Source: Rhodovulum sp. MB263 (lineage in GTDB: Bacteria; Pseudomonadota; Alphaproteobacteria; Rhodobacterales; Rhodobacteraceae). From it: a stretch of 64,000 nucleotides of DNA. Made by a program: the position numbers and the translations under genes. The DNA lies in contig NZ_CP020384.1 of assembly GCF_002073975.1 (NCBI RefSeq), positions 2,294,001 through 2,358,000 of the forward strand, in the 5' to 3' direction. The notes under the pieces were generated by a model that worked only from the letters and a program-made list of their open reading frames with translations, made no database searches and had not been told where the DNA came from. How positions within the stretch are numbered: the stretch's first letter is position 1; each line of letters starts with the position of its first letter. Shown piece after piece: positions 8,125-54,461 of the stretch.

Positions 8125-8154
8125 TTGACAAGCGCGCTCCCGGAAGGGCATGAA
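8125..8154 (+). promoter_or_regulatory. Candidate promoter of the cobW-cobF operon
   Basis: A perfect TTGACA (8125-8130) is followed 17-18 bp later by CATGAA (8149-8154) or GCATGA. It lies immediately before the riboswitch P1 stem, where the promoter must be. The -10 is weak. Confidence 0.45.
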
Positions 8155-8159
8155 CCGCC

Positions 8160-8362
8160 GCGCTGGTGCCCGTCATCGGACGGGTGAAAAGGGAATGCGC
8201 CAGAGGCCGGGTTCGATGCATCGGGCCTTCAAGCGCAGCCGCCCCCGCGACCGTGACCGGAGAGGCCGCCCGCATGCCACTGACCCGAACGGGCCGGGAA
8301 GGCAGGGCCGCCGCCGAAGGCCCCTGCCTTCGAGATCCGCAAGCCGGGAGACCTGCCAGCGC
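8160..8362 (+). promoter_or_regulatory. Cobalamin riboswitch controlling the DUF1636-cobW-cobN operon
   Basis: P1 closes with GCGCTGG (8160-8166) pairing CCAGCGC (8356-8362). Between them are the conserved blocks GGGTGAAAAGGGAA, AGCCGCCCCCGCGACCGTGA (the B12-box region), GCCACTG, CGGGAAGGC and AAGCCGGGAGACCTGCC in canonical order. A 146-nt expression platform follows up to the DUF1636 start and includes a CCGGA/TCCGG hairpin (8375-8392). The family binds adenosyl- or hydroxocobalamin and lowers expression. No T-tract terminator is visible, so control of translation initiation or Rho-dependent termination is possible. Confidence 0.95.
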
Positions 8363-8508
8363 AGACGACGTGAACCGGACGGGGTGTTCCGGTGTCGGGT
8401 CCGGCTTCGGCTCTGCCCGCTCCCGCCCTTGTCCTCCGACCCGTGGGGCCCGACGATGAGTGTTTCCGTTTCCTTCCGCCGCTCCTTCCGCGACCGGAGC
8501 CGCCCGGC

Positions 8509-9936: not shown

Positions 9937-12900
9937 ATGCATGTCGTTTTCCGCGAAAGCCACGGGCTCGAGGAAACCGCCGTTCCGACGGATCTGGGTC
10001 AGGACCCGGCCGATCTGGCGGTGCTGTCCTTTTCCGACAGCGATCTCGGGGCCTTCGCGGCGGGCTGGCATCGCGGCGGCGGCCCCGAAGGCCGGATGCC
10101 CACCCTCAGGCTGGCCAATCTCGCGGCCCTGATCCATCCGCTCTCGGTCGATACCTATGCCGAGCGCACGCTTTCGGGGGCGAAGGGCATCCTGATCCGG
10201 CTGATCGGCGGGCGCGCCTATTGGGAGTACGGGCTGACCCAGATCGGCGCGCTGGCCCGCGCGCATGGCATCGCGCTGGCCGTGCTGCCCGCCGACGGGC
10301 GCCCCGATCCGCGGCTCGACGCGGCCTCGACCCTGCCGGTCTCGACACTCAGGCGCCTGTCCGAGCTCTGCGACGAGGGCGGTGCGGTCGCGGCGCAGGC
10401 GGCGCTGGCGCAACTGGCTCTGGCCGCGGGGCTTTACGCCGCGCCCGTGATCGGCACCAAGACCGTGCCCGAAATGGGCGCCTGGAGCCCCGAGGGCGGC
10501 GCCGTGCCCGCGCCCGACCTGTCGCCGGTGGATGCCCCCCGGATCGTCCTGACCTTCTACCGCGCCTATGTCACCGCCGCCGATCTCGGTCCCGTCGAGG
10601 CGCTTTTCGATGCGTTCCGGGCGCGCGGCTGCGCCGTCACCGGCCTCTTCGTGCCGTCCCTGAAGGCGCCCGAGGCGGCGCGCTGGCTGGCGGACCATCT
10701 GCGCGCGCTGAACCCCGCCGCCATCGTCAATGCCACCGCCTTTTCCGGCAAGGGCGAGGACGGGACCTCGCCGCTCGATGCCCCGGGCGTGCCGGTCTTT
10801 CAGGTGGCGCTGTCTTCCGCCCCCGAAACCGCCTGGGCCGAGGCCGAGCGCGGGCTGTCTCCGGCCGATCTTGCCATGCATGTGGTCCTGCCCGAGGTCG
10901 ATGGCCGGATTTTCGCGGGCGTTGCGTCCTTCAAGGAGGCGGGCACGCGCGACCCCGGCCTGCAGTTCGCCCGCATCGCCCACCGCGCCCATCCGGGCCG
11001 GATCGCGGCCATCGCCGACCGCGTCTTGGCCTGGACCGGCCTTGCCCGCACATCGCTGGCGAACCGCCGCCCGGCGCTGGTTCTCTCGACCTATCCCGGA
11101 CGGCCCTGGCAGATGGCCCATGCCGTCGGGCTCGATGCGCTGGCCTCGGCCGAGGCGGTGCTGGAGGATCTGACCCGCGCCGGTCTGCCGGGCGCCCCGG
11201 CCGGGGATCTTGCGGGCGATCCGGCGAAAGATCTGGCTGAAAACCTGGCGGGGGCCCTCGGCCGCGAGACCCTGAGCTGGCCGCTTGCAGATTACCAGAC
11301 CGCGTTGGCCGCCCTGCCCGCCGCCTTGCGCGACGCCCTGTCGGACGCCTGGGGCGCGCCCGGGGCCGATCCGGCCTGCCGCGACGGCGCCTTTCATTTC
11401 GCGGCCACCCGGCGCGGCGCGGCGCTGGTCGCGCTCCAGCCCGAGCGCGGCACGCCCGAGAGCCGCGAGGGCGATTATCACGACCTGTCGCGGGTACCCC
11501 GCCATGGCTATGTCGCCTTCTATCTCTGGCTGCGCCGGGCCATGGGCTGCGACGCGCTGATCCATATCGGCGCGCATGGCACGCTGGAATGGCTGCCCGG
11601 CAAGGCGGTCGCGCTGTCCGAGGCCTGCTGGCCCGAGGCGCTGATCGGCGATCTGCCGGTGATCTATCCCTTCATCGTCAACGATCCCGGCGAGGCGGCG
11701 CAGGCCAAGCGCCGGATCGGCGCGGTGACGCTGGGCCATCTGCCGCCGCCGCAGCGCCAGGCCGGCAGTTCCGAACGGCTGGCCCGGCTCGAGACGCTGC
11801 TCGACGAGTTCTCCAATGCCGACGGGCTCGACCCGCGCCGCCGCGACCGGCTGATGGCCGATATCCGCGCCGAGGCACAGGCCCTCGGCGTCGAGGCCGA
11901 TCTGGGACTGGAACCGGGGCTCTCACCCGCCGAGGCCATCACCCGCATCGACCGCTTCGTCTGCGACGTCAAGGAAAGCCAGTTCGGCGACGGGCTGCAT
12001 GTCTTCGGCCGCCCGCCGGAAATACAGCCGGAAACACAGCCCGAGGCCGCCTCCGGCTTCGACACCGGCGCCTCTGTCGCGGCCGAGAGCGCCGCCCTTC
12101 TCGGCGCGCTGCAGGGCGCCCCGGTCGCCCCCGGCCCCTCGGGCTCGCCCTGGCGGGGGCGGCGCGACGTGCTGCCGACGGGGCGCAACCTCTTCACCAC
12201 CGATCCGCGCGCGGTGCCGACGCGCTCGGCCCATGCCCAGGGCGTGCGGCTCGCCGAGGATCTGGTGCGCCGCCACCTGCAGGATCATGGCGACTGGCCC
12301 CGGCAGCTGGTCGTCGATCTCTGGGGCTCGGCCACCATGCGCACGGCGGGCGAGGATTTCGCCATGGCGCTGCACCTGCTGGGCGTGAAGCCGGTCTGGG
12401 ACGAGGGCACCGAGCGCGTCTCGGGCATCGAGGTGCTGCCCGTCGCCATGCTCGAGCGGCCGCGGCTCGACGTGACCTTGCGTGTCTCGGGGCTGTTCCG
12501 CGATGTCTTCCCCGCGCTCTCGGCCCTGTACCAGCAGGCCATCCGCGCGCTGTCCCGGCGCGACGAGGCCCCCGACTGGAACCCATATGCAGGCCGCCCC
12601 GAGACCCCGCGCGTCTACGGCCCCGCGCCGGGGATCTACGGGCTCGGCATGGAGACGCCAGAACCCACCGAGGCCGGGCGGCAGGCGGCGGGGGCCGCCT
12701 GGCTCGCCGCCAGTGCCTGGGCGCTGGACGGGGCCGAGGCGCGACGCGACGCCGAGGGCATCCGCGACCGGGTCGCCGGGGCCGAGGCCTTCGTCCATGC
12801 CCAGGACCTGCCCGAGACCGACCTTCTGCTGGCGGCCGATTATGCCCGGCACGAGGCGGGCTTTGCCGCGGCGCAGGGTGTCACCGGGGGCCGCGCCGCG

Positions 12901-13299
12901 CTCTACCATCTGGACAATACCGATCCCGCACGGCCCCGCACCCGGACCCTGAGCGAAGAGATCGCCCGCGTCGTCCGCGCCCGGGCCACCCACCCGGCCT
13001 GGCTTGCCGGCATGCAGCGTCACGGCTTTCGCGGCGCGGCCGAGATCGCTGCGACGCTCGACCACATGGCGGCCTTCGCCCGTCTGGCGGGGGTCGTGCC
13101 CGACCACCTTTTCGATCTCTATTTCGAGGCCACGCTGGCCGATCCGGGCTTGACGGCCTTCCTCGAAGAGGCCAACCCGCAGGCGCTCGCGGCGATGCGG
13201 GCCGAATTCGCGGCGCTGGCGCGGGACGGGCTCTGGCAGACCCGCCGGAACTCGATCGCGGCCGCGCTGACAGATCTGGAGACCCCGAATGCCCCATGA
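9937..13299 (+). CDS. cobN: Cobaltochelatase large subunit CobN
   Basis: 1120 residues, somewhat shorter than the Pseudomonas denitrificans protein. It is the substrate-binding, ChlH-like subunit of the ATP-dependent CobNST complex that inserts Co(II) into hydrogenobyrinic acid a,c-diamide. The central CobN/magnesium-chelatase H core is seen in AYWEYGLTQIGALARAHG and HIGAHGTLEWLPGKAVALSE. A low-complexity stretch near residues 690-730 (EIQPETQPEAASG) looks like a linker. cobS and cobT are not in the window. It overlaps cobH by 11 bp. Confidence 0.97.
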   Translation: MHVVFRESHGLEETAVPTDLGQDPADLAVLSFSDSDLGAFAAGWHRGGGPEGRMPTLRLANLAALIHPLSVDTYAERTLSGAKGILIRLIGGRAYWEYGLTQIGALARAHGIALAVLPADGRPDPRLDAASTLPVSTLRRLSELCDEGGAVAAQAALAQLALAAGLYAAPVIGTKTVPEMGAWSPEGGAVPAPDLSPVDAPRIVLTFYRAYVTAADLGPVEALFDAFRARGCAVTGLFVPSLKAPEAARWLADHLRALNPAAIVNATAFSGKGEDGTSPLDAPGVPVFQVALSSAPETAWAEAERGLSPADLAMHVVLPEVDGRIFAGVASFKEAGTRDPGLQFARIAHRAHPGRIAAIADRVLAWTGLARTSLANRRPALVLSTYPGRPWQMAHAVGLDALASAEAVLEDLTRAGLPGAPAGDLAGDPAKDLAENLAGALGRETLSWPLADYQTALAALPAALRDALSDAWGAPGADPACRDGAFHFAATRRGAALVALQPERGTPESREGDYHDLSRVPRHGYVAFYLWLRRAMGCDALIHIGAHGTLEWLPGKAVALSEACWPEALIGDLPVIYPFIVNDPGEAAQAKRRIGAVTLGHLPPPQRQAGSSERLARLETLLDEFSNADGLDPRRRDRLMADIRAEAQALGVEADLGLEPGLSPAEAITRIDRFVCDVKESQFGDGLHVFGRPPEIQPETQPEAASGFDTGASVAAESAALLGALQGAPVAPGPSGSPWRGRRDVLPTGRNLFTTDPRAVPTRSAHAQGVRLAEDLVRRHLQDHGDWPRQLVVDLWGSATMRTAGEDFAMALHLLGVKPVWDEGTERVSGIEVLPVAMLERPRLDVTLRVSGLFRDVFPALSALYQQAIRALSRRDEAPDWNPYAGRPETPRVYGPAPGIYGLGMETPEPTEAGRQAAGAAWLAASAWALDGAEARRDAEGIRDRVAGAEAFVHAQDLPETDLLLAADYARHEAGFAAAQGVTGGRAALYHLDNTDPARPRTRTLSEEIARVVRARATHPAWLAGMQRHGFRGAAEIAATLDHMAAFARLAGVVPDHLFDLYFEATLADPGLTAFLEEANPQALAAMRAEFAALARDGLWQTRRNSIAAALTDLETPNAP

Positions 13300-13918
13300 C
13301 TACGAAAAGGACGGCGCGGCGATCTACCTGCAATCCTTCGCCACGATCCGGGCCGAGGCCGATCTGGCGGGGTTCGACGCCGATGAGGAGCAGGTGGCCG
13401 TCAGGATGATCCACGCCGCGGGCATGGTCGAGCTGGCGCCCCATATCCGGTTCTCGCCCGGCATGGTCGCCACCGCCCGCGCGGCCCTCGAGGCCGGCGC
13501 GCCGATCCTCTGCGATGCGCGGATGGTGTCCGAAGGGATCACCCGCAAGCGCCTGCCCGCCGGGAACGAGGTCCTGTGCACCCTGCAGGCCGAGGGCATC
13601 GCCGAGCGCGCCGCCGCCATGCGCAATACCCGCTCGGCCGCCGCGCTGGAACTCTGGCGGCCGCATCTCGCAGGCGCTCTGGTGGCCATCGGCAATGCGC
13701 CGACCGCGCTTTTCCATCTGCTGAACATGCTCGAGGACCCCACCTGCCCGCGGCCCGCCGCCATCATCGGCTGCCCGGTGGGCTTTGTCGGCGCGGCCGA
13801 GTCGAAGGAGGCGCTCTGGGCCGAACAGCCGGTGCCCTGCTGCATCGTCGAGGGGCGCCTGGGCGGCAGCGCCATCACCGTCGCCGCCATCAACGCCATC
13901 GCAAGCCGCAAGGAGTGA
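13289..13918 (+). CDS. cobH: Precorrin-8X methylmutase
   Basis: 209 residues. It shifts the C11 methyl group to C12, giving hydrogenobyrinate. The catalytic histidine of the family is His42 in RMIHAAGM, and the fold is complete through GCPVGFVGAAESKEAL and the C-terminal GRLGGSAITVAAINA. The start codon lies inside the last 11 bp of cobN and is preceded by GGAGA. The AAGGAG at its 3' end serves cobI. Confidence 0.97.
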   Translation: MPHDYEKDGAAIYLQSFATIRAEADLAGFDADEEQVAVRMIHAAGMVELAPHIRFSPGMVATARAALEAGAPILCDARMVSEGITRKRLPAGNEVLCTLQAEGIAERAAAMRNTRSAAALELWRPHLAGALVAIGNAPTALFHLLNMLEDPTCPRPAAIIGCPVGFVGAAESKEALWAEQPVPCCIVEGRLGGSAITVAAINAIASRKE

Positions 13919-13920
13919 CC

Positions 13921-14643
13921 ATGGGCACCGTCTACGGCCTGGGGCTCGGCCCCGGCGACCCCGATCTGATGACCGTCCGCGCCGACCGGCTGTTGCGGGG
14001 CGCGCGCCACGTGGCCTTCTTCCGCAAGGCCGGCTGCGAAGGGAAGGCCCGCTCGATCGTGGCCGAGCTGATCCCCCCGGGCGCGATCGAGCACGCGATG
14101 GAATACCCGGTCACGACCGAGATCCCCTTCGACGATCCGCGCTATAACACGATCCTCGCCGAGTTCTATGCCGACAGCACCGCGCGGCTGAGGGCGCTGG
14201 CCGAGGCGGGCGAGGACGTGGTCGTGCTGTGCGAGGGCGACCCGTTCTTCTACGGCTCGTTCATGCATCTCTATACCCGCCTCAAGGACGATGTCCCGGT
14301 CGAGGTCGTGCCCGGAATCACCGGCATGTCGGCGGCCTGGACCGCCACCGGCGCGCCGATCACCTGGGGCGATGACGTGATGTCGGTGCTGCCCGGCACC
14401 CTGCCCGAGGAAACGCTGGTGCGGGGCATCAAGGCAGCCGATGCGGTGGTGGTGATGAAGATGGGCCGTCATCTCGGCAAGCTCAGGCGCGCGCTCTTGC
14501 TGGCGGGCCGGGCCGAGGAGGCCTGGATCGTCGAATATGCCGCGATGCCGGGCCAGACCGTGACCCGGCTTGCCGATTATCCCGGCCGGACCGCCCCCTA
14601 TTTCTCGATCGTCCTCGTTCATGGCCAGGGACGGCGGCCATGA
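13921..14643 (+). CDS. cobI: Precorrin-2 C20-methyltransferase
   Basis: 240 residues. This SAM-dependent tetrapyrrole methylase converts precorrin-2 to precorrin-3A. The SAM site is seen in GLGLGPGDPDLMTVRA, the CEGDPFFYGSF loop and VVPGITGMSAAW. The ATG follows AAGGAG and sits 2 bp after the cobH stop; its own stop overlaps the cobJ start (ATGA). Confidence 0.96.
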   Translation: MGTVYGLGLGPGDPDLMTVRADRLLRGARHVAFFRKAGCEGKARSIVAELIPPGAIEHAMEYPVTTEIPFDDPRYNTILAEFYADSTARLRALAEAGEDVVVLCEGDPFFYGSFMHLYTRLKDDVPVEVVPGITGMSAAWTATGAPITWGDDVMSVLPGTLPEETLVRGIKAADAVVVMKMGRHLGKLRRALLLAGRAEEAWIVEYAAMPGQTVTRLADYPGRTAPYFSIVLVHGQGRRP

Positions 14644-15392
14644 GCGGCTGGCTTGCCATTGCAGGCCTTGGCCCGGGCGCCGAGGCTCTGGTCACGCCCG
14701 AGGTCTCGGCCAGCCTCGCCGAGGCCACCGATGTCGTGGGCTACATTCCCTATGTCGCCCGGATCGCGGAGCGTCCGGGGCTGACGCTGCATGCCTCGGA
14801 TAACCGGGTCGAGGTGGACCGCGCCCGCCATGCATTGCAGATGGCCGCCGAGGGCCGCCGTGTCGTCGTGGTCTCCTCGGGCGATCCGGGCGTCTTCGCC
14901 ATGGCGGCCGCCGTTTTCGAGGCGCTCGAGGCGGGCGCGCCCGAATGGCGCGATCTCGACATCCGGGTGCTGCCCGGGATCACCGCGATGCTGGCCGCCG
15001 CCGCGCGCGCGGGTGCGCCCCTGGGCCATGATTTCTGTGCGATCAACCTGTCGGACAATCTCAAGCCCTGGGCCCTGATCGAGAAGCGTCTCAGGCTGGC
15101 GGCCGAGGCCGATTTCGCCATGGCCTTCTACAACCCGCGCTCGAAGGCGCGCCCCGAGGGCTTTGCCCGGGTGCTCGAGCTGCTGCGCGAGGTCTGCGGC
15201 GACGACCGCCCGGTGATCTTCGCCCGTGCGGTCTCGACCCCCGGGGAAAAGCTGAGCGTGGTGCCGCTGACAAAGGCCCGGCCCGAGATGGCAGACATGC
15301 GCACCGTCGTGCTGGTCGGCTCCTCGCTGACCCGGGTGCTGCGCGCGGGCGACCGGCCGCTGGTCTACACCCCCAGATCCGCCCCGGAATGA
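14640..15392 (+). CDS. cobJ: Precorrin-3B C17-methyltransferase
   Basis: 250 residues. It methylates C17 and contracts the ring of precorrin-3B, the product of CobZ here, to give precorrin-4. The CobJ hallmarks are the N-terminal IAGLGPGAEALVTPE, YIPYVARI, SSGDPGVFAMA, and the AFYNPRSKAR segment. Its last 28 bp overlap the 3' end of the oppositely oriented cobK, so the sense message from cobJ to cobL runs straight through cobK in antisense. Confidence 0.97.
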   Translation: MSGWLAIAGLGPGAEALVTPEVSASLAEATDVVGYIPYVARIAERPGLTLHASDNRVEVDRARHALQMAAEGRRVVVVSSGDPGVFAMAAAVFEALEAGAPEWRDLDIRVLPGITAMLAAAARAGAPLGHDFCAINLSDNLKPWALIEKRLRLAAEADFAMAFYNPRSKARPEGFARVLELLREVCGDDRPVIFARAVSTPGEKLSVVPLTKARPEMADMRTVVLVGSSLTRVLRAGDRPLVYTPRSAPE

Positions 15393-16120
15393 GCGAGCCA
15401 GTCCAGAACCTCGTCGGGATGCGCCAGTTCCCGCCGCGCGGGCAGGACGGGCCGGTCGATCATCAGAACCGGCAGCTCCAGCGCCCGGGCCGCGAGGATC
15501 TTGGCGCAGGCCCCAGTGCCGCCCGCGTTCTTCGACACCACGAGCTCGGTGCCATGCCCCTCCATCAGCGCCCGGTCGTCCGCTTCGGTGAACGGCCCGC
15601 GCGAGACGATGACATCGGCCTGCGGCAGGGGCAGCGGTCCCCTGGGCGCATCGACCAGACGCAGCAGGTAGCGGTGCTGGGGCCGGGCCGCGAAGGCCTC
15701 AAGATGCATCCGCCCCACGGCCAGGAACACCCGCCGGGGCGGCCCGGACAGCGCCGCGACCGCGCCTGCAATATCGGGCACATGGCGCCAGGTGTCGCCG
15801 GGCTGCGGTGCCCAGGCCGGACGGGTCAGCGCGACCAGCGGCAGGCCGAGGGCCGTGCAGGCCTCGGCCGCGTTCCGGCTCATCTGGGCGGCAAAGGGAT
15901 GGGTGGCGTCGATCACATGGGTCACGCCCTCGGCGCGCAGATAGGCGATCAGGCCCGGCACGCCGCCAAAGCCGCCCACCCGCATCGGAATGGGCTGGGC
16001 CTTCGGCGTCTCGACCCGGCCTGCCAGCGACAGGGTCGCGGTGAGGCCGGTTTCCGCCAGCCGGGCGGCCAGCGCGGTCGCCTCGGTGGTGCCGCCAAGG
16101 ATCAGAAGGGTGGGACGCAT
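15365..16120 (-). CDS. cobK: Precorrin-6A reductase
   Basis: 251 residues. It uses NADPH to reduce precorrin-6A to precorrin-6B. The nucleotide-binding N-terminus LILGGTTEATALAARLAE and the DATHPFAAQMSRNAAEAC and VSKNAGGTGACAKI motifs are typical. The gene is inverted inside the cob operon: its ATG (16120-16118) and the cobL ATG (16119-16121) share the palindrome CATG, and its 3' end overlaps cobJ by 28 bp. Any promoter and ribosome site of cobK must therefore lie inside the cobL coding sequence. The minus-strand sequence just before its ATG shows no strong Shine-Dalgarno. Confidence 0.96.
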   Translation of the reverse strand: MRPTLLILGGTTEATALAARLAETGLTATLSLAGRVETPKAQPIPMRVGGFGGVPGLIAYLRAEGVTHVIDATHPFAAQMSRNAAEACTALGLPLVALTRPAWAPQPGDTWRHVPDIAGAVAALSGPPRRVFLAVGRMHLEAFAARPQHRYLLRLVDAPRGPLPLPQADVIVSRGPFTEADDRALMEGHGTELVVSKNAGGTGACAKILAARALELPVLMIDRPVLPARRELAHPDEVLDWLAHSGADLGV

Positions 16121-17318
16121 GGCTGAGACTCCGTGGCTGACCATCGTGGGCCTGGGCGAAGATGGCCCGGAGGGGCTGCCGCCTGCAAGCCGCGATGCCC
16201 TTGAACGGGCCGAAATCGTCATGGGCCCGGCGCGGCATCTGGCGCTTCTGCCGGGTCTCGCGGCCGAGCGCCTCGACTGGCCGGTGCCCTTCGCCGACGG
16301 GCTGCCGATCCTGCAGGGCTTGCGCGGACGCCGGGTCGCGGTGCTGGCCTCTGGCGATCCGTTCTGGTTCGGCGCGGGCAGCGTGATCGCGCGGCGCTTC
16401 GCGCCCCATGAATGGCGCGCCCTGCCCGGCCCTTCGGTCTTTTCGCTGGCGGCCGCGCGGCTTGGCTGGCCGCTGGAGGCCACCCATTGCGCGGGGCTTC
16501 ATGCCGCACCCTTCGCCCGGCTGCGCCCCCTGCTGGCGCCGGGCTTCACCGCCCTCGTCACCCTGCGGGACGGCGCGGCGGTCGCGGATTTCGCGACCTT
16601 CCTGACCGGGGCAGGCTTCGGCGAGAGCCGCCTGCACGTGCTCGAGGCCCTTGGCGGGCCGCGCGAGCGCATCCGCGTCACAACCGCCCGCGCGATGGAT
16701 CTGGAGGGCATCGCCCATCCCGTCGCCGTGGCGCTGGAGGCCGCAGGCGAGGGCCCCGCGATCCCCGCCGCCTCGGGCTGGCCCGACAGCCTCTTCGAGA
16801 ATGACGGGCAGATCACCAAGCGCCCCGTCCGCGCGCTGACGCTTTCGGCCCTGGCGCCGCTGCCGGGCGAGCATCTGTGGGATATCGGCGGCGGCTCGGG
16901 CTCGATCTCGATCGAATGGCTGGCACGTCATCCGGGAATGCAGGCCAGCGTGATCGAGGCCGATCCCGTCCGCGCCGAACGGATCGCGGCCAATGCGGCG
17001 GCGCTTGGCGTCGAGCGTCTCCGCATCGTCGCCGGCCACGCGCCGGAGGCGCTGGACGGGCTTGCCCCCCCCGATGCGGTCTTTGTCGGCGGCGGGCTAT
17101 CGCAAGAGCTGCTGGAAACGCTCTGGGCGCGCGTTGCCCCCGGCTCCCGGATCGTCGCCAATGCAGTCACGCTCGAATCGGAAACGCTGCTGGCCCTGTG
17201 GCAGGCCGCCCATGGCGGCGAGCTTTTGAGGATCGAGCTGGCCGAGGCCCGCCCGCTGGGCCGCAGGCGCGGCTGGCGCGCCGCCTTCCCGGTGGTGCAA
17301 TGGAGCGTCCGGCGGTGA
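16119..17318 (+). CDS. cobL: Precorrin-6Y C5,15-methyltransferase (decarboxylating)
   Basis: 399 residues, a fusion of two methyltransferases as in the aerobic pathway. Residues 1-200 are the CbiE-like tetrapyrrole methylase ([26 protein letters not shown]). Residues 220-399 are the CbiT-like SAM domain ([24 protein letters not shown]). It methylates C5 and C15 and removes the C12 acetate carboxyl. The ATG at 16119 shares bases with the cobK start on the other strand; the frame is open upstream, but that region is cobK. Confidence 0.97.
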
Positions 17319-17683
17319 GGGTCGCGGGCTTCGGCTTTCGCGCCGCCGCGACCGAGGCAAGCCTTGCCGATGCGCTCGCGCGCGCGGGCGGGCCCGACGG
17401 GCTGACGGCGCTGGCCGCCCCCACCGACAAGGCCGCCGCCCCCGGCCTTGCGGCACTGGCCGCGCGGCTGGCCCTGCCGGTCTGCCCGGTCACCGCGGAC
17501 GCGCTGCACCGCCCCGCCACGCCGACCCGATCGGCGCAGAGCCTCGCCCATCGCGGCACCGGATCGGTCGCCGAGGCCGCGGCCCTTGCGGCCTGTGGCG
17601 AGGGGGCTCGCCTTCTGACCCCGCGCAGGGTATCGAACGACCGGATGTCCACCTGCGCCATCGCAATGAAAGACCTGCCATGA
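17315..17683 (+). CDS. cobE: CobE (CbiG C-terminal-like protein)
   Basis: 122 residues from the GTG at 17315, whose GTGA overlaps the cobL stop and which has GGAG 9 bp upstream. An ATG at 17300 without a ribosome site is the alternative and adds 5 residues. [23 protein letters not shown] and the C-terminal [18 protein letters not shown] are the CobE/CbiG C-terminal pattern. In the anaerobic pathway CbiG opens the ring-A lactone. The exact role of free CobE in the aerobic pathway is not firmly settled. Its stop overlaps the cobM ATG. Confidence 0.92.
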
Positions 17684-18456
17684 CCGTCCATTTCATCGGC
17701 GCCGGGCCCGGCGCCCCCGATCTTCTGACCCTGCGCGGCCGCGACCTGATCGCCGCCTGCCCGGTCTGTCTCTATGCCGGATCGCTGGTCCCCGAAGAGA
17801 TCCTCGGCCATTGCCCCGAGGGCGCGCGGATCGTGAACACCGCGCCGATGGATCTCGATGCCATCATCGCCGAGTGCAAGCGCACCCATGAGGCCGGGCA
17901 GGACGTGGCGCGGCTGCATTCGGGCGATCTTTCGGTCTGGTCGGCCATGGGCGAGCAGATCCGGCGGCTGAAGGCCCTGGGCATTCCGGTCAGCGTGACC
18001 CCCGGCGTGCCCTCCTTTGCCGCAGCGGCCGCGGCCCTCGGCACCGAGCTGACCCTGCCCGGCCTTGCCCAGTCGGTAGTGCTGACCCGGACGCCCGGCC
18101 GCGCCTCGTCGATGCCCGAGGGCGAGAGCCTTGCCAATTTCGCCGCGACCGGCGCAACGCTCGCAATCCATCTCTCGATCCACAATCTCGCGAAGGTGGT
18201 CGCGGATCTCGTGCCCCATTACGGCACCGACTGCCCGGCGGCGATCGTCTACCGCGCCAGCTGGCCCGACCAGCAGATCCTGCGCGGCACGCTCGGCACG
18301 CTGGAAGCGGCGCTGCCCGAGGACATCGAGCGCACCGCGCTGATCCTTGTCGGCCGCAGCCTCGGCGCCGAGGGCTTCGATGAAAGCTGCCTCTATGACG
18401 CCGGATACGATCGCCGGTTCCGGCCGCGCTCGGCCCGGGCGGGCAGCGATGGCTGA
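17680..18456 (+). CDS. cobM: Precorrin-4 C11-methyltransferase
   Basis: 258 residues. This SAM-dependent methylase makes precorrin-5. The SAM motif [27 protein letters not shown] and [16 protein letters not shown] are clear, and [14 protein letters not shown] is typical of CobM/CbiF. It overlaps cobE (ATGA) and cobB (8 bp). Confidence 0.97.
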
Positions 18457-19765
18457 AAGGCCGCCGGGTCTGGTGATCGCGGCGCCCGCCTCGGGCAGCG
18501 GCAAGACCACCGTCACGCTGGGGCTTCTTCGGGCCTTCCGCGCGGCGGGTATTGCCGTGCAGCCCTTCAAGAACGGCCCCGATTACATCGACCCGGCCTT
18601 CCATGCCCGCGCCTCGGGACGGGCCTCCTACAATCTCGACCCCTGGGCGATGGGCGAGGACCTGCTGGCGACGCTGGCGGCCGAGGCCCGGGGCGCCGAT
18701 CTGGTGATCGCCGAGGGCGCGATGGGGCTTTACGACGGCACCCTCGCGCCCGGCATCTCGGGTCATGGCACCAGCGCCGAACTGGCGCGGCGTTTCGGCT
18801 GGCCGGTGGTGCTGGTGATCGACGTCTCGGGGCAGGCGCAATCGGCGGCGGCGGTCGCCCATGGCTTTGCCTGCCATCCCGACGCGCCGCCCGTCGCGGG
18901 CGTGATCCTGAACCGCGTCGCGGGCGCGCGGCACGAGGCGATGATCCGCCCCGAAATGGCCCGGCTCGGCATCGCGGTCCTGGGCGCCCTGCCCCGCCGC
19001 CCCGACCTGACCCTGCCCGAGCGCCATCTGGGCCTCGTGCAGGCGGGCGAGCAGGCCGATCTGGAGGCGCGGATCGACGCCATCGGCCAGTTCGTCGCCG
19101 AGCATGTCGAGCTAGACGCGCTCCGCGCCGCCGCCCGGCCCGGGGTCTCGGGCGCCATGGGCAACTGGCCCGTCCCCCCGGCCCAGCGCATCGCGCTTGC
19201 GCGGGATGCGGCGTTTTCCTTCGCCTATCCGCATCTGCTGGAAGGCTGGCACCGCGCGGGGGCCGAGATCCTGCCCTTCTCGCCGCTGGCCGACGAGGCG
19301 CCTGACGAGGACGCCGATCTGGTCTGGCTGCCCGGCGGCTATCCCGAACTGCATGCCGGCCGGATCGCCGGGGCCGCGCGGTTTCTGAAGGGCCTCCGCG
19401 CCCATGCCAGAACCCGCCCCGTCCATGGCGAATGCGGCGGCTACATGGTGCTGGGCGAGGCGCTGATCGACAAGGACGGTACCCGGCACGCAATGGCCGG
19501 GCTTCTGGGCCTTGTCACCAGCTTCGAGACGCGCCGCCTGCATCTGGGCTATCGCCGGGCCGAGCTGCTGGCGGCGATGCCCGGCCACGCCCCCGGCACA
19601 AGGCTGCGGGGCCATGAATTCCATTATTCGACAATCCTTTCCCAGCCCGACGCAGCACTCGCCTGCGTCACCGATGCCAGTGGCGCGGATGTGGCCGAGA
19701 CAGGATCGCGGCGCGGCCCGGTCACGGGCAGCTTCTTTCACCTGATCGCGGAGGACCCAAGATGA
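18449..19765 (+). CDS. cobB: Hydrogenobyrinate a,c-diamide synthase
   Basis: 438 residues. It amidates the a and c carboxylates with glutamine and ATP. The N-terminal dethiobiotin-synthetase-like ATPase ([20 protein letters not shown]) is followed by a type 1 glutamine amidotransferase domain with the nucleophile in [11 protein letters not shown] and a late GHEFHYS segment. The ATG at 18449 is internal to cobM; the stop overlaps cobA (ATGA). Confidence 0.96.
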
Positions 19766-20496
19766 GCGGTTTCGTGAGCTTCGTGAGTTCCGGCCCCGGC
19801 GATCCCGAGCTTCTGACCCTGAAGGCGGTCGACCGGCTGGCAAAGGCCGATGCGGTCCTGTTCGACGATCTGTCCTCGGGGCCGATCCTGGGCCACGTGC
19901 GGCCGGGCGCCGATCTGGTCGGCGTCGGCAAGCGCGCGGGCCGGGCCTCGCCCAAGCAGGACCATGTCAGCCGCCTGCTGGTCGATTACGCCGCCTCGGG
20001 GCAGCGCGTGGTGCGGCTCAAATCGGGCGATTCGGGGCTGTTCGGACGGCTCGAAGAGGAAATCACCGCGCTGCGGGCGGCGGGCATCGGTTACGAGGTC
20101 ATCCCCGGCGTCACCTCGGCCTGCGCGGCGGCGGCGGCGGCGGGCATTCCGCTGACCCGGCGGCTGACCGCCCGGCGGGTGCAGTTCGTGACCGGCCATG
20201 ACGTGACCGGCCACCTGCCGCGCGACATCGACATCGCCGCACTGGCCGACGAACATGCGACGACGGTCGTCTACATGGGCAAGCGCACCTTCCCGGATCT
20301 GGCCGCGACGCTGATCGCGCGAGGCCTGCCGGAAACCACGCCGGCGCTGCTGGCCGAGGGCGTGGGCACGCCGGATCAGGCGCTGACCCGGACCACGGTC
20401 GCGGGGCTGGCGGCGCTCCTGGCCGAAAGCCATGGCTCGGCCGCGCCGGGGCTGATCCTGTTCGGGCCGCTGGTCGAGGAGGCCCGCGATGCATGA
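19762..20496 (+). CDS. cobA: Uroporphyrinogen-III C-methyltransferase (SUMT)
   Basis: 244 residues, a stand-alone SUMT rather than a CysG fusion. It makes precorrin-2, the entry point to corrin (and possibly sirohaem). Motifs are SSGPGDPELLTLKAVDRL, VRLKSGDSGLFGR and VIPGVTSACAAAAAAG. The ATG overlaps the cobB stop and the 3' end overlaps cobF by 8 bp. Confidence 0.96.
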   Translation: MSGFVSFVSSGPGDPELLTLKAVDRLAKADAVLFDDLSSGPILGHVRPGADLVGVGKRAGRASPKQDHVSRLLVDYAASGQRVVRLKSGDSGLFGRLEEEITALRAAGIGYEVIPGVTSACAAAAAAGIPLTRRLTARRVQFVTGHDVTGHLPRDIDIAALADEHATTVVYMGKRTFPDLAATLIARGLPETTPALLAEGVGTPDQALTRTTVAGLAALLAESHGSAAPGLILFGPLVEEARDA

Positions 20497-21235
20497 GCTT
20501 GTCCTGATCGGCATCGGCACCGGCAATCCCGACCATGTCACCTTCCAGGCCGCCGAGGCGATCCGGGACGCCGATCTGATCCTGATCCCGCGCAAGGGGG
20601 CGGACAAGGCCGATCTTGCCGATCTGCGCCGCCAGATCTGTGCACGCGTCCTGGGCGAGGACGCAAGCGGCCGGATCGCCGAGTTCGACCTGCCCGTCCG
20701 CGACGCCTCGGGCGACTATCGCGCGGGCGTGCTGGACTGGCACGACGCCATTGCCGGGGTCTGGACCGAGACCGTCGCGGCGACGCACCCCGCGCCCCGG
20801 AAGGTGGCACTGCTGATCTGGGGCGATCCCTCGCTTTATGACAGCTCGCTCCGGATCGCGGCACGGCTGTCGCCCGCGCCCAAGATCACCGTCATCCCGG
20901 GCATCACCGCGATCCAGGCGCTCTGCGCCGCCCATCGCATCCCGCTGAACGAGATCGGCGCGCCGGTCGTCATCACCACCGGACGGCAGATCCGCGATCA
21001 TGGCTGGCCCGAAGGGGCGGACACCGTGGTCGCGATGCTGGATGGCGGCTGCGCCTTCCAGACCCTCGCGCCCGAGGGCATCCGGATCTGGTGGGGCGCC
21101 TATCTGGGCATGGCGGAGGAAATCGCCATCGCCGGGCCGCTGGCCGAGGCCGGGCCCGAGATCCTGAAGACCCGCGACGCGGCCCGCGCCCGGCATGGCT
21201 GGCTGATGGACATCTACCTGATGCGGCGAGGTTGA
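20489..21235 (+). CDS. cobF: Precorrin-6A synthase (deacetylating)
   Basis: 248 residues. It methylates C1 of precorrin-5 with loss of acetate and is diagnostic of the aerobic pathway. GIGTGNPDHVTFQAAEAI, LLIWGDPSLYDSS and VIPGITAIQALCAAH mark the tetrapyrrole methylase fold, and RIWWGAYLGMAEEI is CobF-like. It is the last gene of the riboswitch-controlled plus-strand operon and is convergent with the cobalt transporter ATPase, with only 16 bp between stops and no terminator evident. Confidence 0.96.
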   Translation: MHELVLIGIGTGNPDHVTFQAAEAIRDADLILIPRKGADKADLADLRRQICARVLGEDASGRIAEFDLPVRDASGDYRAGVLDWHDAIAGVWTETVAATHPAPRKVALLIWGDPSLYDSSLRIAARLSPAPKITVIPGITAIQALCAAHRIPLNEIGAPVVITTGRQIRDHGWPEGADTVVAMLDGGCAFQTLAPEGIRIWWGAYLGMAEEIAIAGPLAEAGPEILKTRDAARARHGWLMDIYLMRRG

Positions 21236-24900: not shown

Positions 24901-24927
24901 CCGCCTCCCTTGCGGGGAAACGGGCGG
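24901..24927 (-). terminator. Hairpin in the expression platform of the second riboswitch
   Basis: On the minus strand CCGCCC...GGGAGGCGG folds into a GC-rich hairpin directly after the riboswitch, followed by only TTT. It could be a weak intrinsic terminator or an anti-antiterminator. Function is inferred from position. Confidence 0.35.
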
Positions 24928-25117
24928 CCGGCAGGTCTCCTGGCTTGCGGGTCTCAGCTTGGCTGGCCTTCCCGGGGGCCTCCCCAGTGGCGTTCTCAGC
25001 CGTGCTCGCCGCTTACAGTTGCGGGGGCAGCCGCGGAATTGCCCGTCCCTTCGGACGGGCGCACCGCGTTCCCTTTTCACGTCCGGACCCTCGGGCCCGG
25101 GCGAACCGGTCACGCAT
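24928..25117 (-). promoter_or_regulatory. Cobalamin riboswitch controlling the cobalt transporter operon
   Basis: Read on the minus strand it has ACGTGAAAAGGGAACGCGGTG, the B12-box CGGCTGCCCCCGCAACTGTAA, ACGCCACTG, CGGGAAGGCC and CAAGCCAGGAGACCTGCCGGC, in canonical order. A hyperstable helper stem GCCCGTCC/GGACGGGC lies between. The genes downstream encode cobalt uptake, so B12 sufficiency would shut off cobalt import. It lies back to back with the cobO promoter region. Confidence 0.95.
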
Positions 25118-25119
25118 CC

Positions 25120-25148
25120 GTCATTGCAAGCAGCTCGGGACTTGTCAA
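25120..25148 (-). promoter_or_regulatory. Candidate promoter for the riboswitch and cobalt transporter operon
   Basis: Minus-strand TTGACA (25148-25143) with a 17-bp spacer to AATGAC (25125-25120), ending right at the 5' edge of the riboswitch. The -35 is perfect and the -10 weak. Confidence 0.45.
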
Positions 25149-25175: not shown

Positions 25176-25203
25176 TTGACGCGGCGGCCCCGCCCGCTAA
25201 GCT
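25176..25203 (+). promoter_or_regulatory. Candidate promoter for cobO
   Basis: TTGACG (25176-25181), 16-bp spacer, TAAGCT (25198-25203), then 26 bp to the cobO ATG. It is divergent from the riboswitch promoter, so cobO-cobQ transcription is separate from both riboswitches. No B12 element lies on this strand. Confidence 0.4.
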
Positions 25204-25229
25204 GTCCCCGACACGCGCAAGGAGCCCCC

Positions 25230-25883
25230 ATGACCGACGAGACCGCCGCCGCCACCGATACCGCCCCCACCAATACCGCAGCCGACGACGCCCGCCATGC
25301 CAGCAAGATGGCCAAGAAGAAGGCCGCGCGCGACAAGATCATGGCCGGGAAATCCGGCGAGAAGGGGCTGATCCTGGTGCATACCGGCACCGGCAAGGGC
25401 AAGTCCTCCTCGGGCTTCGGGATGATCCTGCGCTGCATCGCCCATCAGATGCCCTGTGCCGTGGTCCAGTTCGTCAAGGGCGCCTGGGATACCGGCGAGC
25501 GGCGGCTTCTGACCTCGCATTTCGGCGATCTCTGCCAGTTCCATGCCATGGGCGAGGGCTTCACCTGGGAAACCCAGGACCGCGCCCGCGACATCGCCGC
25601 GGCCGAAAAGGGCTGGGAAAAGGCCAGGGAGCTGATCCGCGACCCCGAAATCCGCATGGTACTGCTCGACGAGATCAACATCGCGCTGCGCTACGGCTAT
25701 CTCGACCCGGCCGAGGTGGTGGCCTTCCTGCAGGCCGAGAAGCCGCCGCTGTCGCATGTCGTCCTGACCGGGCGCAACGCCCCCGAAGAGGTGATCGAGG
25801 CGGCCGATCTGGTGACCGAGATGACGCTGGTCAAGCACCCGTTCCGCTCGGGCATAAAGGGCCAGCCGGGCGTCGAGTTCTGA
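25230..25883 (+). CDS. cobO: Cob(I)yrinic acid a,c-diamide adenosyltransferase
   Basis: 217 residues of the CobO/BtuR (CobA-type) family. It transfers adenosyl from ATP to the cobalt. P-loop-like HTGTGKGKSSSGFG near residue 50, VVQFVKGAWDTGER and the late VKHPFRSGIKGQPGVEF are typical. An Ala/Thr-rich N-terminal tail of about 40 residues precedes the domain. AAGGAG lies 5 bp before the ATG. A 62-bp gap leads to cobQ. Confidence 0.97.
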   Translation: MTDETAAATDTAPTNTAADDARHASKMAKKKAARDKIMAGKSGEKGLILVHTGTGKGKSSSGFGMILRCIAHQMPCAVVQFVKGAWDTGERRLLTSHFGDLCQFHAMGEGFTWETQDRARDIAAAEKGWEKARELIRDPEIRMVLLDEINIALRYGYLDPAEVVAFLQAEKPPLSHVVLTGRNAPEEVIEAADLVTEMTLVKHPFRSGIKGQPGVEF

Positions 25884-25945: not shown

Positions 25946-27544
25946 ATGACCCTTGACCGGACCCGGAGCCGCTATCCCGACCTGCCCCCCGGCGATGCGG
26001 CCCCGCCGATGCCCGAAATCTCGGTACCGATGCTCGACCCGGTGCCGCCGCGCCGCGCGAAGGCCCTGATGCTGCAGGGCACGAGTTCGGATGTCGGCAA
26101 GAGCCTCCTGGTCGCAGGGCTCGCCCGCGCCTATGCGCGGCGCGGCCTGAAGGTCGCGCCCTTCAAGGCGCAGAACATGTCGAACAATGCCGCCGTCGCC
26201 GCCGACAGCGACCTGCCTCCCGGCCCCGACGGCACCGCCCCCAGGGGCGAGATCGGCCGCGCCCAGGCGCTTCAGGCGCAGGCCGCGGGGCTGCCCCCCT
26301 CGATCCACATGAACCCGGTGCTGCTGAAGCCGCAGGCCATGGTCGGCTCGCAGGTGGTGCTGCGGGGCCGTCCGCTGGGCAACTGGCCCGCGCGGCATTA
26401 CCACAAGCTCAAGCCCAAGCTCCTGCCCGCGGTCATGGACAGTTTCAACCGCGTCGCGGCCGGGGCCGATCTGGTGCTGGTCGAGGGCGCGGGCGCGGGC
26501 ACCGAGACCTATCTGCGCAAGAGCGACATCGCCAACATGCGCTTTGCCGAGGCCGCCGATCTGCCGGTGATCCTCGTCACCGACAATGACCGGGGCGGCG
26601 CGATGGCGGCCGTGGTGGGCTCGTGGTGCCTGCATACGGCGGCCGAACGCGCCCGCATCGCGGGCTATCTGGTCAACAAGTTCCGCGGCTATTTCTCGCT
26701 TTACGAACCGGCCTGCGCGACGATCACCGAACGCACCGGCTGGCCCTTCCTGGGCGTCGCCCACTGGTTCGAGGGCGCCGCGCGGCTTCCGGCCGAGGAT
26801 GCGCTGGCGCTCGAGCGGCCGGCCTCGGGCGGCGGTACCGGACTGGTGATCGCGGTGCCCCATATCGCGCGGATGGCCAATTTCGACGATCTCGATCCGC
26901 TGTCGGCCGAGCCGGGCGTCGATCTCCGCTGGGTCCGCCCGGGCGAGCCGATCCCCGCCGAGGCCGATCTGGTACTGCTGCCGGGCTCGAAGACCACCCG
27001 GCCCGCGCTCGACTCGATCCGCGCCAATGGCTGGGACATCGACATCCTCGGCCATCTGCGCCGGGGCGGGCGGGTCGTGGGCATCTGCGCCGGGTTCCAG
27101 ATGCTGGGCCGGAAGGTGCGCGACCCCGACGGCATCGAGGGCCCGCCGGGCGAGACCGAGGGGCTGGGGCTTCTGGATATCGAGACCGAGATCGGCGGCG
27201 AGAAGCGGCTGGTCGAGATCGCGGCCGAGGATGCGATCAGCGGCACAAGCGTCACCGGCTACGAGATGCATATGGGCGTGACCCGGGGGCCGGGGCTCGA
27301 GCGGCCCTGGCTGCGGCTCGACGGCCGCCCCGAGGGCGCGGTCTCGGCCGATGGCCTTGTGATGGGCGGCTATCTGCACGGGCTCTTTGCCGCCGACGGC
27401 TTCCGCCGGCACTGGCTGAGGGCGATGGGCGGGCGGGCCTCGGGGCTCGACCATGCCGCCCGGGTCGAGGCGGCGCTGGATGCGCTGGCCGACCAGCTGG
27501 AACGCGATCTCGATCTCGACGCGCTGCTGGCGCTGGCGCGATGA
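25946..27544 (+). CDS. cobQ: Cobyric acid synthase, copy 1
   Basis: 532 residues. It amidates the b, d, e and g carboxylates of adenosylcobyrinic acid a,c-diamide. The N-terminal ATPase has MLQGTSSDVGKS and FKAQNMSNN; the C-terminal glutamine amidotransferase domain keeps nucleophile Cys381 (GICAGFQMLG) and His478 (GYLHGLF). Compared with copy 2 it has a 40-residue N-terminal extension and an insert (SDLPPGPDGTAPR) after AAVAAD. CAGGAG precedes the ATG. Its stop overlaps the ATG of a second complete cobQ. Confidence 0.95.
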   Translation: MTLDRTRSRYPDLPPGDAAPPMPEISVPMLDPVPPRRAKALMLQGTSSDVGKSLLVAGLARAYARRGLKVAPFKAQNMSNNAAVAADSDLPPGPDGTAPRGEIGRAQALQAQAAGLPPSIHMNPVLLKPQAMVGSQVVLRGRPLGNWPARHYHKLKPKLLPAVMDSFNRVAAGADLVLVEGAGAGTETYLRKSDIANMRFAEAADLPVILVTDNDRGGAMAAVVGSWCLHTAAERARIAGYLVNKFRGYFSLYEPACATITERTGWPFLGVAHWFEGAARLPAEDALALERPASGGGTGLVIAVPHIARMANFDDLDPLSAEPGVDLRWVRPGEPIPAEADLVLLPGSKTTRPALDSIRANGWDIDILGHLRRGGRVVGICAGFQMLGRKVRDPDGIEGPPGETEGLGLLDIETEIGGEKRLVEIAAEDAISGTSVTGYEMHMGVTRGPGLERPWLRLDGRPEGAVSADGLVMGGYLHGLFAADGFRRHWLRAMGGRASGLDHAARVEAALDALADQLERDLDLDALLALAR

Positions 27545-28998
27545 GCGCGCGGCGGCTGATGGTGCTGGGCACCGGCTCGGATGTGGGCAAGAGCCTGCTG
27601 GTCGCGGGGCTCGCGCGTGCCTATGCCCGCCGGGGGCTGAAAGTGGCGCCCTTCAAGGCGCAGAACATGTCGAACAATGCCGCCGTCACCGCCGATGGCG
27701 GCGAGATCGGCCGGGCCCAGGCGCTGCAGGCGCGCGCCGCGGGCGCGGCCCTGACGGTCGACATGAACCCGGTGCTGCTGAAGCCCGAGACCGATATCGA
27801 CTGTCAGGTCGTGCTGCGGGGCCGCGTGCTGGGCCGCTATTCGGCCTCGGCCTATCAGGCGCTCAAGCCCGGGCTGCGGGCCGGGGTCGTGGAAAGCCTC
27901 GACCGGTTGTCGGCGGACCATGACCTGGTGCTGATCGAGGGCGCGGGCAGCGGCGCCGAGCGCTATCTGCGCCCGCAGGACATCTCGAACATGGGGCTGG
28001 CCGAGGCCGCCGACCTGCCGGTGGTCCTGCTGGGCGACGAGTCGCGCGGCGGCGTGACCGCGGCCGCCATCGGCCATCACCGGCTCTGGACCGGGGCCGA
28101 GCGGGCCCGCGTGGGCGGCGTCATCGTGACCAAGTTCCGTGGCGACCCGGCCGTCTTCGCCCCCGCCGCCGCCGAGATCCGGGCCGAGACCGGCTGGCCG
28201 GTTCTGGGGCTCTTGCGCTGGTCCGAGGCCGCGCGCGCCCTGCCCGAGGAGGATACGCTGGGGCTCGGGCGGCGCAAGGGCGCGGGCGGGCAGCTGGTGA
28301 TCGCGGTGCCCGAACTGCCCCGGATCGCCAATTTCGACGATCTCGATCCGCTGGCGGCCGAACCGGGCATCGATCTGCGCTGGCTGAAGCCCGGCCAGCC
28401 GGTGCCGGGAGATGCCGATGCGGCGATCCTGCTGGGCTCGAAGACCACCCGCGCCGCGCTTGACGCGATCCGCGCCGAGGGCTGGGATATCGACCTGCGC
28501 GCCCTTCTGCGCCGGGGCGGCCGGGTGATCGGACTTTGCGCGGGCTATCAGATGCTGGGCCGCGTCGTGCGCGACCCCAAGGGCATCGAGGGGCCCCCGG
28601 GCGAGACGCCGGGGCTCGGGCTGCTCGATATCGAGACGGTGATGACCGGCGACAAGCGGCTGGTCCGGATCGCGGCCACGGACCGGATCAGCGGCCAGCC
28701 CGTCTCGGGCTATGAGATCCATATGGGCCGGGTCGCGGGTCCGGCGACCGCACGGCCCTGGCTCGATCTCGACGGCACGCCCGAGGGCGCGGTCTCGGAG
28801 GATGGAAGGGTGATGGGCAGCCATGTGCACGGGCTGTTCGGGACCGGGGCGTTCCGCCATCACTGGCTTGCCTCGATCGGCGGCCATGCCGCCCCCGGCC
28901 GGGCGGCGGAGGACCCGGTCGAGGCCGCGCTCGACCGTCTGGCCGACGAGATCGAGGCCGATCTCGATCTCGATACGCTGCTGACGCTGGCGCGCTGA
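27541..28998 (+). CDS. cobQ: Cobyric acid synthase, copy 2 (tandem paralogue)
   Basis: 485 residues, the canonical CobQ length. VLGTGSDVGKS, FKAQNMSNN, nucleophile Cys333 (GLCAGYQMLG) and His430 (SHVHGLF) are all present, so both copies look catalytic. The pair shares a 42-bp identical block (26156-26197 and 27646-27687) but differs widely elsewhere, which points to an older duplication rather than an assembly artefact. The ATG overlaps the stop of copy 1 (ATGA), so the two are co-translated. Whether they divide the four amidations, act on different corrinoids, or one is redundant cannot be told from sequence. Confidence 0.94.
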   Translation: MSARRLMVLGTGSDVGKSLLVAGLARAYARRGLKVAPFKAQNMSNNAAVTADGGEIGRAQALQARAAGAALTVDMNPVLLKPETDIDCQVVLRGRVLGRYSASAYQALKPGLRAGVVESLDRLSADHDLVLIEGAGSGAERYLRPQDISNMGLAEAADLPVVLLGDESRGGVTAAAIGHHRLWTGAERARVGGVIVTKFRGDPAVFAPAAAEIRAETGWPVLGLLRWSEAARALPEEDTLGLGRRKGAGGQLVIAVPELPRIANFDDLDPLAAEPGIDLRWLKPGQPVPGDADAAILLGSKTTRAALDAIRAEGWDIDLRALLRRGGRVIGLCAGYQMLGRVVRDPKGIEGPPGETPGLGLLDIETVMTGDKRLVRIAATDRISGQPVSGYEIHMGRVAGPATARPWLDLDGTPEGAVSEDGRVMGSHVHGLFGTGAFRHHWLASIGGHAAPGRAAEDPVEAALDRLADEIEADLDLDTLLTLAR

Positions 28999-29123: not shown

Positions 29124-29165
29124 GTGAGCGGAACCGCGCAACAGGGATCGGCGCGCCTTGGCTAG
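29124..29165 (+). CDS. Possible 13-residue leader ORF before the ABC transporter
   Basis: GGAGGAG (29110-29116) is a far stronger ribosome site than that of the ABC gene. It lies 7 bp before GTG, which opens a frame reading MSGTAQQGSARLG and stopping at 29163-29165, just past the TTG start of the transporter (29158). An ATG-TGA minimal frame overlaps it at 29122. Translational coupling is a fair inference; a real peptide product is unproven. Confidence 0.3.
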   Translation: MSGTAQQGSARLG

Positions 29166-33043: not shown

Positions 33044-33143
33044 CCGCTCCATCCGCTCTGGCAGAAAGGCCCAGCATCGGGCCCCTCCGCCCCCTCCAAC
33101 CGCTCCGATAGCCTTTTGTGAAGGTTTTCAGGGGAGGATTTTT

Positions 33144-33173
33144 TTGGACTTTCGGCCATTTTTCGCCGATAAT
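33144..33173 (+). promoter_or_regulatory. Candidate promoter of the second ABC transporter
   Basis: TTGGAC (33144-33149), 18-bp spacer, GATAAT (33168-33173), giving a leader of about 135 nt to the GTG at 33313. The -10 matches five of six positions. Confidence 0.3.
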
Positions 33174-33312
33174 TGATGCAGCGCTACAAAGAGAGCCGGG
33201 TCTCCGGCTCGCGGGGCGCGACACAAACCATAAGAGGCGCCTTGCCCGGGCGGCCGCCGGAAACGGCTGGCACGTCACAGGACAGGTGCGCGCGAACGAG
33301 GCGAGAGCGGTT

Positions 33313-54331: not shown

Positions 54332-54461
54332 CTGGAACCTCATGCGGGGGAAGAAAGAACGACGGCACCGGTCGCGGCAGGCGCCGGTCGGGGAAAGGCT
54401 GCAAGGCGGCGACGGCCGGGACACGCGACGGGACGCGCAGCGGTCCGATGCGGCCTCGGTC

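Follow-up and report, generated by a model that had tools for sequence, protein, structure and literature searches.

Why does a bacterium encode two complete cobyric acid synthases side by side? The question is raised by Rhodovulum sp. MB263, in a 64,000-nucleotide stretch of its genome analysed here as a whole (the window), where two cobQ genes lie in tandem:

25946..27544, plus strand: cobQ copy 1 (branch A of the clade described below), 532 aa
27541..28998, plus strand: cobQ copy 2 (branch B), 485 aa
27541..27544, plus strand: ATGA shared by the end of copy 1 and the start of copy 2

Both genes are intact, as an initial annotation of this DNA had proposed together with the ATGA overlap, and coordinates, domains and family cut-offs agree on this. 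The products share 62% identity (483 residues aligned) and score above the NCBIfam equivalog cut-offs for cobyric acid synthase, with 579.7 (copy 1) and 564.9 bits (copy 2) for NF001989 (cut-off 273 bits) and 382 and 372.3 bits for TIGR00313 (cut-off 309.9 bits). Each contains the CbiA synthetase and GATase_3 domains and a P-loop, in keeping with the ATPase motif noted earlier, and the amidotransferase residues that had been picked out (Cys381 and His478 in copy 1, Cys333 and His430 in copy 2) occupy invariant columns in an alignment of 38 CobQs. The model for CobB (cobyrinic acid a,c-diamide synthase) scores 48.1 and 51.6 bits against copies 1 and 2, below its cut-off of 254 bits, and that for GatD (lipid II isoglutaminyl synthase) scores 20.8 bits against copy 1, below its cut-off of 450 bits, with no listed match for copy 2; the pair is within the CobQ family. 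AlphaFold2 models have a mean pLDDT of 87 for copy 1 and 92 for copy 2, the low-confidence parts being the copy 1 N-terminal extension and one short linker. GatD, CTP synthetase and dethiobiotin synthase have the solved folds closest to these models, and a sequence search found no solved CobQ/CbiP structure. Among solved folds, MurT/GatD and dethiobiotin synthase come nearest to the two domains; they act on different substrates, and GatD is a separate subunit whereas the CobQ domains are fused.

Several sequence features distinguish the two copies from each other and from canonical CobQ:

25946..26059, plus strand: residues 1-38, forming the N-terminal extension of copy 1, where model confidence is low
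26207..26245, plus strand: copy 1 loop insert (approximately residues 88-100), a typical feature of the phototroph clade that copy 2 has lost
26483..26518, plus strand: EGAGAGTETYLR, the signature loop of the clade as it appears in copy 1 (EGAGSPAExNLR in canonical CobQ)
27937..27972, plus strand: clade signature loop EGAGSGAERYLR of copy 2
26582..26599, plus strand: DNDRGG of copy 1 (canonical DIDRGG)
28036..28053, plus strand: DESRGG of copy 2, with the second Asp gone, as across branch B

The N-terminal extension described for copy 1 is real, although residues 1-40 are modelled at low confidence (block means of 34-67 pLDDT), and other branch A proteins carry similar proline-rich extensions. 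The insert is likewise present in copy 1 as described, but it was not gained there: the 12-13-residue loop persists in copy 2 relatives from Ectothiorhodospira, Rhodocyclus and Halorhodospira, and this excludes it as a copy 1 novelty and shows it to be ancestral to branches A and B and lost by copy 2. Neither copy has the canonical EGAGSPAExNLR loop, an SGxExYL-type loop being present instead. The largely conserved second Asp of DIDRGG is lost throughout branch B; since His, Asn or Glu occupies this position in some canonical CobQs, its loss need not abolish activity.

The genome encodes a third CobQ that the initial annotation, which considered only the pair, did not take into account. It lies about 1 Mb from the pair (C1:3296207), has the highest CobQ score of the three and is canonical in both its loop (EGAGSPAEVNLR) and its DIDRGG motif, with 55-58% identity to copies 1 and 2. 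Canonical CobQ/CbiP proteins, as defined by NF001989 and TIGR00313, have the same domains and catalytic residues as the pair. The pair differs in forming a separate clade, in the change from SPAExNL to SGxExYL, in an alanine rather than a glycine after the nucleophilic Cys, in the clade loop insert (lost in copy 2), and in its gene neighbourhood. The assumption that CobQ normally acts alone overlooks both this third gene and the existence of a phototroph-only clade.

Relatives at 60-88% identity to copy 1, among named genomes, all come from purple phototrophs or from metagenome-assembled genomes placed among them, and include Rhodovulum, Rhodocyclus, Rubrivivax, Rhodopseudomonas, Rhodoblastus, Magnetospirillum (Phaeospirillum) fulvum, Ectothiorhodospira, Halorhodospira and many Chromatiaceae; below these the identity falls to 55%, and ordinary Rhodobacterales come next. 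A tree of 75 CobQs sets 47 clade entries, copies 1 and 2 included, apart from the canonical proteins at 100/100 support, and divides the clade into branch A (with copy 1; 96/85) and branch B (with copy 2; 100/99). Alpha-, beta- and gammaproteobacteria are represented in each branch, so the A/B duplication predates the spread between classes; the phylogeny that had been suggested for dating the two copies thus rules out a recent tandem duplication. Clade-wide changes from the canonical sequence include EGAGSPAExNL to EGAGSGxExYL, in which the loop after EGAG exchanges P for G and N for Y, together with an R in place of P towards the end of the synthetase domain and an A in place of the G that follows the nucleophilic Cys. 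The age of the split and its co-inheritance argue for non-redundant roles of A and B.

The two branches are distributed unequally. Branch A is the sole CobQ in about 22 genomes, mostly of purple sulfur bacteria, and should therefore carry out the whole reaction; it is probably a complete cobyric acid synthase. Branch B is always accompanied by A or by a canonical CobQ and is never seen as the sole CobQ; Halorhodospira has B with a canonical CobQ and no A. The two genes overlap in Rhodovulum, are adjacent in Rhodocyclus, Rubrivivax and two further genomes (G236 and G532), and lie about 10-13 kb apart in two others (G694 and G705). The branch B cobQ of Halorhodospira is adjoined by a gene that, judged by eye, resembles an IscB-type HNH nuclease (L053:3032-4363, minus strand).

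Median dN/dS values across 11 Rhodovulum genomes are 0.20 for copy 1, 0.22 for copy 2 and 0.22 for the canonical gene. Relaxed selection on one copy, which the initial annotation had named as part of a result that would speak against its reading, is thereby excluded, as is a pseudogene, with the exception of one genome (G014), and this equal purifying selection indicates that B has a maintained role. In G014 (L185:9607-11055) the branch A gene ends before the catalytic His, the sequence past its stop does not resemble cobQ, B is missing and the canonical gene is kept, showing that the pair can be lost. Rhodovulum imhoffii has an assembly gap where the pair was checked.

Which trait does the clade follow? 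Within the family, sampled at about one genome per genus, 2 of 247 genomes carry it and 94 have reaction centres; a link to phototrophy in general is unsupported there (2/94 reaction-centre genera against 0/153 others, p 0.14). The gene bchE, which encodes the anaerobic cyclase of the bacteriochlorophyll pathway, is the better correlate. BchE requires cobalamin (PMC13142503), and the MB263 genome encodes it at C1:1067525. All three clade carriers in a phylum sample of 397 genomes have bchE, and 77 genomes of one gammaproteobacterial family comprise 18 with both, 1 with the clade only (a genome of 2.2 Mb), 8 with bchE only and 50 with neither, fragmentary CobQ matches being unclassified and entered as lacking the clade. 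The p values for co-occurrence, 1.6e-10 and 2.8e-5, are uncorrected for shared ancestry and overstate the case because the genomes are related. The association extends to position: in 24 genomes 364-2526 bases separate the branch A gene from a bchE model match, with the cobQ mostly just 3′ of it on the same strand, and in Allochromatium warmingii the neighbour is confirmed as BchE. The clade genes lie apart from bchE in Rhodovulum, Rubrivivax and Rhodopseudomonas, and several bchE genomes, including three Rhodovulum species, lack the clade.

Two further features were noted. Purple bacterial BchE proteins (L037:6154-7878, L038:6129-7838 and L040:6103-7785) carry one or more short CGGGxxQ motifs at the C-terminus, such as ACGGGDEQL and ICGGGDQQL. 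In Rhodoblastus acidophilus a long protein with near-identical short repeats of the ALTTAQ/ALSTDQ type is encoded upstream of the branch A cobQ (L042:1-2493, minus strand).

The pair in MB263 lies beside the genes of de novo corrin synthesis:

8147..8374, plus strand: cobalamin riboswitch, 5′ of the main corrin operon
9937..21235, no single strand assigned: de novo corrin genes (cobN, H, I, J, K on the minus strand, L, E, M, B, A, F)
18449-19765: separate CobB, identified by its family model
24913..25125, minus strand: cobalamin riboswitch, facing the minus-strand cobalt-transport genes and not cobO-cobQ-cobQ
25197..25883, plus strand: cobO, corrinoid adenosyltransferase, directly 5′ of cobQ copy 1 on the same strand

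Family models confirm the cobZ-like gene, cobN, cobH, cobB, cobF and cobO in the window; the names cobW, I, J, K, L, E, M and A come from reading the sequence. The CobZ-like protein (5499-8075, plus strand) is a fusion that matches both the FAD-dependent TcuA/CobZ and the TcuB 4Fe-4S models. No riboswitch faces cobO and the two cobQ genes, all on the plus strand. Upstream of the cobQ genes we found no CrtJ/PpsR- or FNR-type sites, nor any regulatory site common to the cobQ and photosynthesis genes, and a promoter and terminator scan found nothing.

The canonical CobQ has different company, being preceded by a cobalamin riboswitch and by TonB-receptor-like and BtuF-like genes (the latter two named by reading their sequences); in another Rhodovulum genome (G009) cobT and a CbiZ/CbiS-like gene are found close to its orthologue. 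Reaction centre genes and bchE are present in all 16 Rhodovulum genomes, and the pair or a remnant of it in 13. A CobB match occurs in 13/13 of the latter and in 0/3 of those without the pair, which still hold the canonical CobQ. This gene content, with CobB tracking the pair and uptake genes beside the canonical copy, suggests that the pair supplies de novo synthesis in Rhodovulum and the canonical CobQ supplies salvage. The division of labour raised in the initial annotation is therefore clearest between the pair, in its de novo cluster, and the canonical copy among salvage genes, and not between copy 1 and copy 2.

We lean toward the reading that the pair represents branches A and B of a phototroph-specific, bchE-associated CobQ that serves de novo supply, with A the complete enzyme, B an accessory, and the canonical CobQ acting in salvage. 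By the usual chemistry the glutaminase domain would free ammonia from glutamine, and the synthetase domain would consume ATP in amidating the four carboxylate side chains still left on the corrin a,c-diamide. The Rhodovulum pair, encoded with cobO by the corrin-ring genes and lacking a B12 riboswitch of its own, would be the de novo CobQ supply, and the third CobQ would be part of a riboswitch-led uptake and salvage set. The clade would have spread among purple bacteria together with bchE, whose anaerobic cyclase product needs cobalamin. Branch A would serve alone, and B would be an old, constrained paralogue that adjusts or assists it.

A less likely though credible account is one of dosage, with three interchangeable cobyric acid synthases of which the pair merely raises capacity at the same step on the same substrate. 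Both copies appear catalytically complete, A has replaced the canonical CobQ outright in many genomes, and G014 lost the pair and kept its canonical gene; however, the A/B split predates the spread between classes, each branch has its own fixed differences, and B never occurs as the only CobQ. A mixed oligomer, in which B either regulates A or completes the active site of A, would suit the overlapping or adjacent genes, the constant association of B with another CobQ, and the resemblance of the synthetase fold to dethiobiotin synthase, whose active site is at a dimer interface. The many genomes with A alone, the pairing of B with a canonical CobQ and no A in Halorhodospira, and the separation of A and B in G694 and G705 make this quite improbable. 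Amidation by the clade of a tetrapyrrole from the bacteriochlorophyll pathway, and not of a corrin, would explain the linkage to bchE, but it is highly unlikely given that many genomes have no CobQ outside the clade, that the Rhodovulum pair directly follows cobO in a corrin cluster, and that both proteins score about twofold over the cobyric acid synthase cut-off.

The substrate itself is a further consideration, and a second, metal-free corrinoid substrate is possible for the pair. Kieninger and colleagues report that a purple sulfur bacterial cobQ, introduced into E. coli cells that produce hydrogenobyrinic acid a,c-diamide, completes the amidations on this metal-free corrin to yield hydrogenobyric acid, and that certain purple sulfur bacteria form cobalt-free corrinoids when cobalt is absent (PMC6771967). 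Since the CobQ of Allochromatium warmingii, like that of most Chromatiaceae examined, is branch A only, the enzyme they used is probably of branch A; the text of that paper does not give its sequence, and our literature search found no paper naming the exact CobQ. A clade mainly devoted to amidating hydrogenobyrinic acid a,c-diamide to hydrogenobyric acid would explain the cobalt-free corrinoids and is consistent with the change in the loop after the EGAG motif across the whole clade. As the main role this is improbable: A is the sole CobQ in many genomes whose bchE needs cobalamin and so must also work in the cobalt route, and cobN and cobalt-transport genes lie within the same window cluster. 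It is also unlikely that a separate corrin pool, reserved for anaerobic phototrophy, has its four amidations shared out between A and B or is handled by a mixed enzyme of the two; such a pool, possibly metal-free or not yet adenosylated, would mean that purple bacteria run two parallel cobyric acid routes.

The phototroph-specific clade, its bchE link and the old A/B split appear to be new relative to the open literature searched, which does not mention a bchE-cobQ link (subscription papers and theses were outside its scope) and in which we found no studied relative of branch B. They establish a genetic tie, in three proteobacterial classes, between an enzyme of B12 biosynthesis and a step of bacteriochlorophyll synthesis that depends on B12, offer candidate genes for the old observation of cobalt-free corrinoids in purple bacteria, and provide a naturally occurring A/B pair with which to study the order in which one CobQ makes its four amidations.

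Three genes on the 3′ side of the pair have a possible role in corrinoid transport:

29158-30909, plus strand: ABC transporter of the ABC_membrane_2/SbmA-BacA type, directly 3′ of the cobQ pair
31037-32761, plus strand: RoxA-like cytochrome c
33118-35238, plus strand: second protein with an ABC ATPase domain

Further along the window, positions 53857-54146 (plus strand) match the Rfam 5′ ureB small RNA family opposite a long minus-strand open reading frame (52589-54424), and the match may reflect only a conserved coding sequence.
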